A stretch of DNA of 64,000 bases from Weissella coleopterorum (lineage in GTDB: Bacteria; Bacillota; Bacilli; Lactobacillales; Lactobacillaceae). Every line of letters begins with the position of its first letter. Position 1 is the first letter of the stretch. Shown in pieces: positions 19,143 through 45,939 of this stretch. The position numbers and the translations under genes are program-made. Location of the stretch: assembly GCF_011304355.1 (NCBI RefSeq), contig NZ_CP049888.1, positions 434,001 to 498,000 of the forward strand. Reading direction: 5' to 3'. The notes under the pieces are model-generated. The model ran no database searches, was not told the DNA's origin, and worked only from the letters and a program-made list of their open reading frames with translations.

Positions 19143-19183
19143 TTGAACGTGTTTATTTTATGGAAACGGGATGGAGGTTTGAA

Positions 19184-22008
<2,825 letters not shown>

Positions 22009-23029: not shown

Positions 23030-23281
23030 ATGGTTATCAAATATTCAAATGACTTTAAAGAATCGATCGTAAGCTTGCATAAAGTTGGTCGTTCAGCTAA
23101 TTCATTAGCAAAAGAATACAACGTTAGTGTTTCAACGGTTTCTAAATGGGTTAATCAAGCCGATCCTAACAATACGAAAGTATTGTCAGCAAATGAAAGG
23201 GCATTGATTAAAGAAAATAAACAACTAAAAGAAGAACTTGATATTTTAAAACGAGCAGCGGTGCTTATGGCGAAAAATTGA
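23030..23281 (+). CDS. IS3-family transposase OrfA
   Basis: This 83-residue protein has a helix-turn-helix (SANSLAKEYNVSVSTVSKWV, residues 22-41) and a C-terminal leucine-zipper-like helix (LIKENKQLKEELDIL). It binds the IS ends. It ends at AAAAATTGA, overlapping orfB by four bases in the -1 frame. The A-run is a likely site for the programmed frameshift that makes the OrfAB transposase. RBS AAAGGAG. Confidence 0.92.
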   Translation: MVIKYSNDFKESIVSLHKVGRSANSLAKEYNVSVSTVSKWVNQADPNNTKVLSANERALIKENKQLKEELDILKRAAVLMAKN

Positions 23282-24099
23282 TCATCAAAGGACGTATTCC
23301 TACCTTAAAAATTATTAATGACAATCTACAGGTTGGGCACCGCATTACTAAAATTTTGAACGTCCTCAGAATTCCACGATCGACTTATTATGGCTATATA
23401 CATTGGAAGCCTGGTAAAACCCTTCTTCGTCGCAATTTCATTAAGCAAAAGGTATTAGATGCATGGTTAAAATATCCTATGTATGGATACCCGCGATTAA
23501 CAATTTTATTAAATCGTCAGTTAAAAATTAAAATTAGCCAGCGTATGGTTTATAAACAGATGTACGCTTTAAAAATTAGGTCTAGGATGACTAAACGAAT
23601 TAATAAGCCTAAAACACATACTGAATATGATCAACGACCAAATCTAATTAAAGGATTACCTGATCAATCCAATATTCTTTTAACAGATATTACGTATATT
23701 CCCGTTAAAAATACTTGGGTTTATCTAGCTAGTGTGTACAATCCCGTAACCCGGCGGGTTATTTCTTATAAAGTTGGAAGTCATATGACTAAGGAATTAG
23801 CAACCGACGTCATTAATCAAGTCGCAGTAAAGTCTGTTAAACCAAGCATTATTCATAGCGATATGGGGAGTCAGTATACAAGCGATTTATTTGAAAGTAC
23901 TTTAACTCGTTTTGGGATTAAGCATTCTTATTCTCGTAAAGGACAACCTGGTGATAACGCAAGAATTGAGAGCTTTCACTCAATTTTGAAGCGTGAATAC
24001 ATTAATTTTCAAGAATTTAAGACAATTAATGAAGCAATAGCTGGCATTGATAGCTATATTCGCTGGTATAACAGTGATCGAATTTCCCTTGTAGCGTAG
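23278..24099 (+). CDS. IS3-family transposase OrfB (DDE integrase domain)
   Basis: This 273-residue catalytic part carries the DDE triad: LLTDITYIPV, HSDMGSQYTS and the Glu in ARIESFHSILKRE. A HTH_21-type region (RSTYYGYIHW, YGYPRLTILL) lies before it. The end, IRWYNSDRISLVA, is a common complete C-terminus in LAB members. It is probably expressed by -1 frameshifting from orfA. The TTG at 23278 is only the first start-like codon. Confidence 0.92.
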   Translation: MIIKGRIPTLKIINDNLQVGHRITKILNVLRIPRSTYYGYIHWKPGKTLLRRNFIKQKVLDAWLKYPMYGYPRLTILLNRQLKIKISQRMVYKQMYALKIRSRMTKRINKPKTHTEYDQRPNLIKGLPDQSNILLTDITYIPVKNTWVYLASVYNPVTRRVISYKVGSHMTKELATDVINQVAVKSVKPSIIHSDMGSQYTSDLFESTLTRFGIKHSYSRKGQPGDNARIESFHSILKREYINFQEFKTINEAIAGIDSYIRWYNSDRISLVA

Positions 24100-27434: not shown

Positions 27435-27502
27435 AATTCACGCAGCATAAATTGAACATTTATGCGGAGCGTGCTAGAATAAGACTATAATTAAATATTT
27501 TA

Positions 27503-27581
27503 TTCACTAGGGGAGCATTTGCTGAGACGGTTAACCGGACCCTTTGAACCTGATTAAGTTAAGACTTGCGGAGGGAAGTGA
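27503..27581 (+). promoter_or_regulatory. TPP (THI-box) riboswitch
   Basis: The conserved elements appear in order: TCACTAGGGG, GCTGAGA, ACCCTTTGAACCTGATT and GGGAAGTGA. TCACT/AGTGA forms P1. The aptamer precedes a strong terminator and thiM, so binding of thiamine pyrophosphate should switch off the thi operon. Confidence 0.95.
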
Positions 27582-27602
27582 CATATTAACTGAGAATAAA
27601 AT

Positions 27603-44022: not shown

Positions 44023-44730
44023 ATGAAATATACGTTAGAAATCCGAATGACCGGTGAGCAAATCGTGGGAATTATCGAAGATGAAAATGGTAATCAGCAC
44101 GAGGTCAACGAATTCTATCAACATTCGTGGGATGAACAGCTCCAAATCATGGATCTAAAAGCAATGGGACGATTTTTTCAAGCATTTGTAGTGCGGATTA
44201 CGAACCACTTACCAGAACGTTCTGAGATCACCAAAATTCAGTTACATGATAATATTGACGGCTGGGCGTTCCTAGATGCCAATGGGCAGACTTTACAAGC
44301 AGGAAATTACCGTGCTGAGTTGCAGCCGCAATTTAAAGGTTATTTAAAAGCCATGCGCCTGAATGGAATTGCGGGTCAATTAGAACGTAAAGCTGGAGCT
44401 GAATTTTCTTTGAATACTCCATTGTTGGCGGCTTTATGGTTTAAAAATGAACATGCGGATCAATATGAACAATTAGCTTATTTTGCTAGTTTTCAAGAAT
44501 ATCTCCATTACCTATTTACAGGCAAAAACCAAATTATGCCTCATTTAGCGGCACGAACAGGACTATACGACTTGGGACATGCCCAATGGGATTCACAAGC
44601 CTTAGCATTGGTTGGGTTAACAGAAGGTATGTTGCCAGATGTAGTGAATGTAGATGGATTTGAAGATCAAATTTTACCTGAATTTAGTCGTCTGCTAGGT
44701 TTGAATAAAGATACCAAAATTAAGTGGTAG
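44023..44730 (+). CDS. degenerate FGGY-kinase-like protein (N-terminal domain only)
   Basis: This 235-residue protein follows the N-terminal half of FGGY sugar kinases: PLLAALWFKNEHADQYEQ, ASFQEYLHYLFTG and ARTGLYDLGHAQWDSQALALVGLTEGMLPDVV match kinases such as gluconokinase. However, the phosphate-binding GIDxGT near the start is replaced by EIRMTGE, and the whole C-terminal ATPase half is absent (family length is about 500). No kinase activity is expected. It could be a sugar-binding or regulatory protein, or a decaying gene, although the frame is clean and has a weak RBS (GGGAG). Confidence 0.6.
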   Translation: MKYTLEIRMTGEQIVGIIEDENGNQHEVNEFYQHSWDEQLQIMDLKAMGRFFQAFVVRITNHLPERSEITKIQLHDNIDGWAFLDANGQTLQAGNYRAELQPQFKGYLKAMRLNGIAGQLERKAGAEFSLNTPLLAALWFKNEHADQYEQLAYFASFQEYLHYLFTGKNQIMPHLAARTGLYDLGHAQWDSQALALVGLTEGMLPDVVNVDGFEDQILPEFSRLLGLNKDTKIKW

Positions 44731-44734
44731 AGCG

Positions 44735-44740
44735 TATAAT
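44735..44740 (+). promoter_or_regulatory. -10 box of the hairpin-array RNA
   Basis: TATAAT at 44735-44740 lies directly after the FGGY-like stop codon. The -35 is poor. The predicted start is near 44747. Confidence 0.5.
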
Positions 44741-44746
44741 ATAATT

Positions 44747-45014
44747 GTTACCGGGGATGCAACTAGTCAAGGAGTTAAGGAACCTAGGACTGTTTGATTG
44801 AATTCAAAAGGGTGCGATGCCCTGTTGTCCGGTAATGACTAAATTCGAGGGTTGAAGGCCTCGAATTTAGTGGGAGAATGGTCAAGTGTGATGGCTTGAC
44901 CAGATGGAAAAAAGTTTAGTTGTCGTGGTGGATCAACTAAACTTATTATGGTGAAATAAGGTGGGGACACCTTATCAGAAAGCACACACTCATTTAGTGA
45001 GCAGTGCTTTTTTT
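44747..45014 (+). ncRNA. candidate structured small RNA with tandem perfect hairpins
   Basis: From a TATAAT box to an intrinsic terminator this 268-base stretch has no ORF but at least five strong stems in a row. They are 44748-44754/44829-44835 (7 bp, closing a branched domain with GGG..CCC and AGTC..GACT), 44839-44850/44859-44870 (12 bp), 44879-44886/44895-44902 (8 bp), 44912-44922/44934-44944 (11 bp) and 44956-44963/44968-44975 (8 bp, GGGA tetraloop). All these stems are perfect. The loops of the second to fourth stems are G-rich (GTTGAAGG, TGTGATGG, TCGTGGTGGAT). It is not 6S, tmRNA, SRP or RNase P RNA by structure. The class is unknown to me. Confidence 0.65.
44979..45014 (+). terminator. 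terminator of the hairpin-array RNA
   Basis: AAAGCAC and GTGCTTT pair, with an inner CTCA/TGAG, followed by a run of T to 45014. Confidence 0.85.
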
Positions 45015-45114
45015 GTATCGCATTGGATTAGCTTGTGTTTTGGATGGGGATTTTATTTGCACAATGAATTGAATTTGGTATGCTTAAGACACGTTAAATA
45101 TGGGAGGAATCATT

Positions 45115-45939
45115 TTGGAATTTATATCGTGGAATATTGATAGTTTAAATGCGGCAGTGGAACATACATCAGCTCGTGGGGAAATGACTTGGTCAGTCTT
45201 GCAAGAAATAGCAGCAAAAAAACCCGCTGTTTTTGCGATTCAAGAAACCAAAGCTAAAAAAACCGGATTGACTAAAAAACAAACTGAGGTAATGGGCGAA
45301 TTATTTCCAGATTATTTTCAATATGCAAATATTAGTATGGGGCGTCCAGGTTACGCTGGAACGTTAATGTTGAGCCAGCAAGAACCATTGCAGGTCGACT
45401 ATCCGACTATTGGTGCGCCAGGTGACATGGATTTGGAAGGCCGCATAATTACGCTTGAATTTGAAGAATATTTTGTGACCACAGTGTATACTCCTAATTC
45501 TGGTTCAGAGTTAGCTCGTTTAGAAGATCGCCAAGCATGGGACCACGCTTTTAAAATTTATTTGGAAAGCTTGGATCGTCAAAAGCCGGTTATTGTGAGT
45601 GGCGATTTTAATGTTGCTCATCAAGCGATTGATCTTAAAAATCCACAAAGTAATCACCATTCTGCAGGATTTACGGATGAGGAACGAGCTAGTTTTACTG
45701 AGTTATTAGAAGCCGGATTTATTGATACTTTTCGAACTTTGAATCCCACGAAAGAACAAATTTATACTTGGTGGGCGCAAATTAGTCGAACGGCAAAGCA
45801 GAATAATAGTGGATGGCGGATTGATTATTATCTAGCTTCACAGCGATTACGGTCGCAATTAAAAGATTTTACAGTGTTAGACACTGGTGAGCGGCGCGAT
45901 CATGCTCCCATTAAAGTGGTTTTTGATTTTAAATCGTAA
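45115..45939 (+). CDS. exoA: exodeoxyribonuclease III (AP endonuclease)
   Basis: This 274-residue Mg-dependent nuclease cuts DNA at abasic sites. Its motifs are SWNIDSLNAAV, AIQETKAKK (metal Glu), SGDFNVAHQAIDL, GWRIDYYLAS and DHAPI (catalytic His). I start at TTG 45115 because GGGAGGA lies just before it; the ATG at 45100 contains that sequence. It is somewhat longer than E. coli Xth owing to inserts. Confidence 0.94.
   Translation: MEFISWNIDSLNAAVEHTSARGEMTWSVLQEIAAKKPAVFAIQETKAKKTGLTKKQTEVMGELFPDYFQYANISMGRPGYAGTLMLSQQEPLQVDYPTIGAPGDMDLEGRIITLEFEEYFVTTVYTPNSGSELARLEDRQAWDHAFKIYLESLDRQKPVIVSGDFNVAHQAIDLKNPQSNHHSAGFTDEERASFTELLEAGFIDTFRTLNPTKEQIYTWWAQISRTAKQNNSGWRIDYYLASQRLRSQLKDFTVLDTGERRDHAPIKVVFDFKS

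Follow-up and report, generated by a model that had tools for sequence, protein, structure and literature searches.

Our analysis of a 64,000-nucleotide stretch of the Weissella coleopterorum genome (the window) indicates that the interval between a truncated gluconokinase gene and exoA very probably holds a free-standing gene for a structured non-coding RNA, with a conserved promoter element, covarying structure, a terminator-like end and no conserved reading frame. The candidate gene covers window positions 44746-45014 on the plus strand (~268-271 nt, about 270), and the locus reads, 5' to 3', as a –10 box, a four-way junction (D1), four hairpins (H2 to H5) joined by G/A-rich linkers, and a terminator-like hairpin. 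Our preferred reading, to which comparative analysis gives about an even chance, is a stand-alone, trans-acting, multivalent scaffold or sponge RNA of ~268 nt with a CsrB-like build and a partner other than CsrA. Its presence in every examined genome of a food-fermentation genus, its strong covariation and its lack of a catalogued family make this structured RNA a probable core regulator, and it would be a compact setting for testing how multivalent RNA sponges work in bacteria that lack CsrA. A search of the open-access literature, with most subscription papers outside its scope, found no prior description of this RNA.

The initial annotation described a row of perfect hairpins running from a TATAAT box to a terminator, and the stems and loops do lie at that place: the 280-nt stretch folds with a predicted energy of –102.3 kcal/mol (z = –8.1), and none of 200 dinucleotide shuffles was equally stable. 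Its statement that such stems are not expected by chance also stands, the minimum free energy fold of the 271-nt RNA having seven uninterrupted stems of at least 7 bp against a shuffle mean of 3.0, with seven reached in 1 of 300 shuffles. The five stems it listed correspond to helix P1 of D1 and to H2, H3, H4 and H5, with two corrections: the first, 7-bp stem is the outer helix of D1, and the stems are near-perfect rather than perfect, since H4 has a one-base bulge. The four-way junction with its T-loop arm and the restriction of the RNA to Weissella go beyond that first description. Over 27 sequences, fold z averages –6.2 (range –3.0 to –8.3) when the RNA is taken as a whole and –7.4 when the tail is taken alone. 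The opposite strand also folds strongly (z = –10.7), as expected of near-perfect inverted repeats; the plus strand was chosen on the grounds of its –10 box, its T run and the unpaired words conserved along it.

Both ends of the RNA look like transcription signals, judged from sequence and conservation. The –10 box, TATAAT (44735..44740, plus strand), lies without a clear –35 element and takes in most relatives the extended form TGNTATAAT; among 27 relatives the exact hexamer occurs in 25 and TACAAT in 2, and TGN precedes the box in 22. At the other end, the RNA closes with a terminator-like hairpin (44977..45014, plus strand) that bears CACUCAUUUAGUGAG at its apex together with a T run, and its stem shows double changes across 13 sequences. 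A consensus scanner reported neither the promoter nor the terminator of the RNA, the –35 hexamer being poor and the terminator hairpin interrupted by an internal loop. No open frame shared across the genus was apparent by eye; the longest frame of each RNA has 17-57 codons and varies in frame and content among species, and a peptide-coding role was rejected on that ground.

The interval 44735-45014 is flanked upstream by an FGGY_N-only gene (44023..44730, plus strand), whose 235-aa product matches positions 44-231 of the 505 of gntK_FGGY, and downstream by exoA, encoding exodeoxyribonuclease III (45100-45939; TIGR00633). The initial annotation tied the RNA to exoA, and this link was not borne out: W. 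kandleri shares exoA with the window at this place, W. confusa has a gene for a large surface protein, and a tyrS-type gene (cluster c3, named in one locus) lies downstream in 12 of 21 loci. The downstream gene varies, and the RNA is therefore not a leader of exoA. The constant neighbor is the upstream half-gluconokinase gene, which sits next to the RNA at every one of the 21 named loci and lies directly upstream at 20, being on the other side of a rearrangement in the remaining locus (L052); a 6-phosphogluconate dehydrogenase-type gene (cluster c1, named in one locus) is found in 16 of the 21. These associations bear on a cis-acting alternative, in which the RNA would belong to a neighboring mRNA, either as the 3' untranslated region that ends the half-gluconokinase transcript or as leader to the gene that follows. 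The stop codon of the half gene lies 4 nt ahead of the –10 box with no terminator between them by eye, which together with the constant adjacency fits a 3' untranslated region, but the RNA has its own conserved –10 box and terminator-like hairpin and the genes after it differ (exoA, tyrS, surface protein and others), and we consider a cis element very unlikely.

The half gene is an observation in its own right. Homologs in other genera, found in 9 of 14 genomes searched, are open frames of 509-544 aa, and the product of the half gene probably cannot be a kinase; this N-terminal FGGY half is nonetheless kept beside the RNA in all 21 Weissella loci. In three loci we noted T-box leaders under the Rfam cut-off downstream of the RNA (L029:1824-2013, L040:2547-2730 and L041:2558-2748), which possibly belong to tyrS. 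Elsewhere in the window we noted a TPP riboswitch (27499-27593) ahead of what appear by eye to be thiamine genes, a beta-galactosidase-like coding region lying by eye in four open frames (19160-22008), which looks like a broken gene, and an open frame resembling by eye an IS3-type transposase (23278-24099).

The RNA was found in all 28 Weissella genomes searched, as the union of two methods. Blastn recovered it in 14 of the 28, and a covariance model of D1 (R1), run with stricter filters and scoring 10 candidates in each genome, matched 26 of 397 genomes drawn from the family, once each and all Weissella; the two Weissella genomes not among these, G004 and G007, were matched by blastn. R1 gave no match in the other 39 genera sampled. 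The window's own genome, a single contig of 1,618,880 bases, was matched once. A second D1 model (R2) gave five matches, all Weissella, in 395 genomes of the order under stricter filters, and in one genome from each of the 39 other genera its sole match at E≤1 was a tRNA-His. An IUPAC pattern, which was derived from Weissella sequences and thus indicates spread rather than absence elsewhere, retrieved 21 records from GTDB r220 contigs, 19 from named Weissella and 2 from Lactobacillaceae MAGs. Searches of viral contigs, phages and plasmids turned up no match, and an origin from such elements was rejected. We thus found the RNA restricted to Weissella, with no credible match in other genera, although distant relatives with an altered D1 could escape these searches. 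In G007 (W. confusa FS54, loci L011 and L052) the RNA gene is interrupted beyond D1, and its tail, like the half gene, lies elsewhere; either an inversion or faulty assembly would account for this, and the genome is listed as 66% complete.

The head of the RNA, D1, is a predicted four-way junction of 92 nt (44746..44837, plus strand) supported by covariation. It is closed by a 14-bp stem with a four-base bulge, GGAU, made of helices P1 (44746-44754/44829-44837) and P2 (44759-44763/44824-44828). Arm P3 (44764..44792), called from covariation and loop comparison, has the apical loop AGUUAAGGAA in the window RNA; in 12 of 27 relatives this loop reads AGUGAUG(N), with a T-loop-like pentanucleotide. 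Arm P4 (44793..44808) varies in length and sequence, is 94.9% paired and has changes on both sides in 4 of 4 pairs. Arm P5 (44809..44823), AGGG-UGCGAUG-CCCU, is a T-loop hairpin by loop comparison and by alignment to the tRNA T-arm: its loop is UGCRA followed by UK, closed by G-C, in 25 of 27 sequences, and the canonical GGUUCGA (UUCGA) in the other 2. In an alignment fitted to the covariance model, the 31 D1 pairs are paired in 98.4% of cells over 23 distinct sequences, both sides change at 19 of the 31, and double-change cells number 108 against 35.1 in shuffles, none of 500 reaching that count. Pairing falls to 29-51% when the partner is slid by 1-3 columns, and an unfitted MAFFT alignment returns the same D1 structure with double changes at 14 of 31 pairs. 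The count of further pair types in D1 was no higher than in shuffles (282 of 500 as high).

The T-arm resemblance of P5 extends to searches against tRNA genes. With filters off, the D1-only model R2 gave 37 matches at E≤10 over 14 loci holding 45 ARAGORN tRNAs; the top 5, and 16 in all, were tRNAs on the sense strand, and in the window two tRNA-Glu genes ranked second and fourth of 27 matches. These tRNA matches are weak (best 17.8 bits, vs 91.4 for D1). A sequence-only control model (R3) placed 14 of its 22 matches on tRNAs, mostly on the T-arm, with a best score of 7.7 bits, so that much of the tRNA likeness of D1 is that of the T-arm alone. In each of the four R2 alignments inspected, the T-arm falls on P5, while P3 and P4 spread over the variable region, the anticodon and the D-loop, where most of the pairs are not native to tRNA. 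A strict cloverleaf for D1 was dropped because P3 and P4 fall off the native tRNA helices and the R3 control also lands on tRNAs. ARAGORN, over 21 Weissella loci, and RF00005 did not call D1 a tRNA. What we claim from the sequences is a T-arm-like hairpin within a four-way junction, and neither a strict cloverleaf nor common descent.

We weighed on this basis whether D1 could mimic tRNA and attract a tRNA-handling enzyme, be it RNase P, the CCA enzyme or a T-loop pseudouridine synthase; the hairpin tail would then serve as cargo or decoy, roughly as in a bacterial Y RNA. The ranking of tRNAs by R2, the lone tRNA-His match in the other genera and the canonical GGUUCGA T-arm in two relatives all point that way; the behavior of the R3 control, the low scores, the non-native pairs of P3 and P4 and the silence of ARAGORN and Rfam argue against it, as does the distribution of the Ro protein, whose TROVE domain (PF05731) was found in 0 of 28 Weissella genomes and in 1 of 14 control genomes. 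We regard the mimic as quite improbable, and bacterial Y RNA as an identity was rejected because the Ro60/Rsr (TROVE) protein is absent in the genus.

Downstream of D1, the tail on the plus strand is a row of hairpins and unpaired linkers. H2 (44838..44871) has the loop GUUGAAGG in the window and AGGUGAAGGA in many relatives; linker A (44872..44878), GGGAGAA, is of the CGGAGGAAAA type in many relatives; H3 (44879..44902), placed by fold and sequence, has the loop region UGUGAUGG; and linkers B (44903..44911) and C (44945..44955), identified like linker A by sequence comparison, read GAUGGAAAA and AUUAUGGUGAA. Between these two linkers lies H4 (44912..44944), whose hexaloop GUGGUG (44925-44930) contains a core, GUGGU, kept in 27 of 27 sequences. 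H5 (44956..44975) has the loop word UGGGGAC in the window; across the 27 sequences its loop reads GUGGUG in 16, UGGUGG in 6 and UGGGGAC in 5, the window being among the last.

The initial annotation asked for stem conservation among relatives, and D1, H2, H4 and H5 are conserved with compensatory change. In H2, both sides change in 10 of 12 pairs, and 43 double-change cells compare with 14.5 in shuffles (alignment A5, 15 of 27 sequences with a common loop architecture). In H4 and inner H5, both sides change at 13 of 16 pairs, with 39 double-change cells vs 9.7 in shuffles (A4, 19 of 27 sequences); for H4 this count describes the unbulged form, the window's own subgroup being among those left out, namely L031 and seven sequences with bulged or different H4/H5. 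Subsets were used for H4 and H5 because the full-length MAFFT alignment (A1) does not hold H3 to H5 in register across subgroups. A1 contains 13 of the 14 blastn loci and A2 contains 11 of 14 (L011 is broken after D1, and the near-identical L009 and L010 were dropped for A2); L015 is the second piece of the RNA of L006, and A3 covers 27 genomes, with G007 excluded.

Comparison among relatives shows that the stems vary freely while the loops and linkers keep words, mainly GGUG. Among the unpaired letters of the tail, G makes up 44%, A 32%, U 21% and C 3.5%. On average, an RNA has GGUG in 3.16 separate unpaired segments and UGGUG in 2.37, where within-segment shuffles give 0.91 and 0.22, and 0 of 300 shuffles were as high in either case; these counts come from 19 of 27 RNAs, kept after removal of near-identical rows for the word-count and target-pairing tests, and the species are related, hence the counts are not independent. 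AGGUGA and GGAGG words also recur in loops and linkers. The suggestion that three consecutive stems present related G-rich loops was right as far as it went, the H5 loop (GGGGAC) being G-rich too. The companion idea of one binding word presented repeatedly fits the family and is less clean in the window itself, whose RNA has fewer copies of the word than many relatives (H5 loop GGGGAC, H2 loop GUUGAAGG).

These properties are the basis of the sponge reading. The locus would be transcribed as a discrete ~268-nt RNA; the D1 head may anchor or protect it, or dock one partner; and the tail, as a multivalent display, would engage a single partner in several copies, either a protein or a CACC-type RNA, and could thereby titrate or scaffold it, on an architecture comparable to that of CsrB/RsmZ sponges, where loops and linkers carry one repeated word. 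Occurrence in 28 of 28 genomes, covariation of D1 and of three tail hairpins, a fold more stable than chance in the RNA and in its tail, a G-rich and C-poor unpaired fraction with a recurring word and an invariant H4 core, the apparent lack of a shared frame and the varying downstream gene are all consistent with it. Against it, CsrA is absent (PF02599 in 0 of 28 Weissella genomes, with 3 of 14 control genomes positive), the word counts of related species are not independent, the H2 and H5 loops of the window deviate from the word, and unpaired parts rich in G and poor in C could merely avoid pairing with the stems.

The same words could instead be Shine-Dalgarno-like, the G-rich loops and linkers acting as a decoy that engages the anti-SD tail of 16S rRNA on the 30S ribosome. 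Predicted anti-SD pairing is stronger than in shuffles (–655 vs –591 ± 20, 0 of 100 as low), the anti-SD tail is present in the genome, and AGGUGA and GGAGG recur, but the effect is below that for ACCA-type ends, the anti-SD windows rank 9th-11th of 1530 in the rRNA-operon stretch rather than first, and the commonest word, GGUG, differs from the SD core GGAGG. The data thus give an SD decoy only moderate support, and we judge it improbable as the function of the RNA.

A more specific version of an RNA partner is tRNA. A review (PMC7583486) describes a pair of T-loops, AGAGA and UGxRA, which interlock and stack against the tRNA elbow, with UGGN pairing to NCCA. The Weissella RNA could then be a tRNA-binding RNA in which the P3 and P5 T-loops interlock on the elbow and UGGU of H4 and H5 pairs with the 3' ACCA, holding or sensing uncharged tRNA in trans through the two contacts used by T-box leaders and RNase P. 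The P5 loop UGCRA (25 of 27) fits UGxRA; in P3, 15 of 27 loops were judged by eye to agree at their 5' part with AGxRA, which is close to AGAGA, and 18 of 27 contain it at some point; UGGU words occur in loops, and the H4 of two relatives (L036 and L037) has GGGUGGUACC, the T-box sequence. Pairing of loop and linker words with ACCA-type ends was also better than in any of 100 within-segment shuffles, in a test that used two example ends and is non-specific, since GUGGUG would pair with any CACC. The P3 loop departs from AGxRA at its 5' part in 12 of 27 sequences, the window itself reading AGUUA, and the Rfam T-box model is unmatched in the RNA of the window and of six relatives, all of which counts against tRNA binding; we hold both the two-contact geometry and a trans-acting role in holding or sensing uncharged tRNA to be unlikely. 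Its fullest form, a 'tRNA ruler' in which a trans RNA grips the elbow with P3 AGURA and P5 UGCRA while several UGGU loops engage ACCA ends, buffering or reporting uncharged tRNA genus-wide, strikes us as more doubtful. If the T-loop pair and UGGU loops did bind tRNA, the RNA would answer the suggestion in PMC4919913 that new tRNA-handling RNAs with interdigitated T-loops be sought.

The match to a catalogued small RNA class that would have spoken against the initial annotation did not turn up. With Rfam 15, no match overlapped the RNA at E≤10, the two chance matches in 44500-45150 falling outside it, and in six relatives the weak overlaps were far under cut-off (PyrR 27.8 of 54 bits, sR18 17.4 of 45); an Rfam identity was rejected because no family reached its gathering score. 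A T-box leader was rejected because RF00230 is unmatched and the downstream gene varies, and a CsrB/RsmZ sponge proper because the CsrA it requires is missing from 28 of 28 genomes. Canonical 6S RNA was likewise rejected: the 6S model RF00013 matched 0 of 28 Weissella genomes at E≤0.001, and the RNA has no rod with a central bubble. That absence of 6S matches would leave room for our RNA to be a functional substitute for 6S that the Rfam model fails to detect in Weissella, but the missing rod, the proposal of another Weissella locus as 6S and the lack of a RarA match among 21 of the neighbor proteins around the RNA make this extremely improbable.

Set beside known systems, the Weissella RNA shares features with several. 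Weissella has been described as lacking a clear canonical 6S RNA, and a transcribed locus downstream of rarA proposed as a non-canonical one (PMC8414754). Our RNA resembles the 6S RNAs of lactic acid bacteria as a small RNA gene found throughout the genus, with a –10 box at one end and a terminator-like hairpin at the other; its neighborhood and fold differ. With T-box RNAs it shares UGGN-type words and T-loop pentanucleotides close to AGAGA/UGxRA, but it is not a leader, and its UGGU lies in a hairpin loop rather than in an antiterminator bulge. Bacterial Y RNAs depend on the Ro protein and carry a T-arm-like hairpin in a junction of a longer non-coding RNA. D1 resembles Y RNAs and tRNA-like RNAs in having such a hairpin in such a setting, and differs in lacking a Ro/TROVE partner, in escaping ARAGORN and Rfam and in its 14-bp closing stem with a GGAU bulge. 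CsrB and RsmZ are free-standing RNA genes whose hairpins and linkers repeat GGA in unpaired positions and sequester CsrA/RsmA. The Weissella RNA is likewise a free-standing gene, in which one short G-rich word recurs unpaired along successive hairpins and linkers, and differs from them in the absence of CsrA and of an Rfam match, in a word that is chiefly GGUG rather than GGA, and in the conserved four-way junction at its head.
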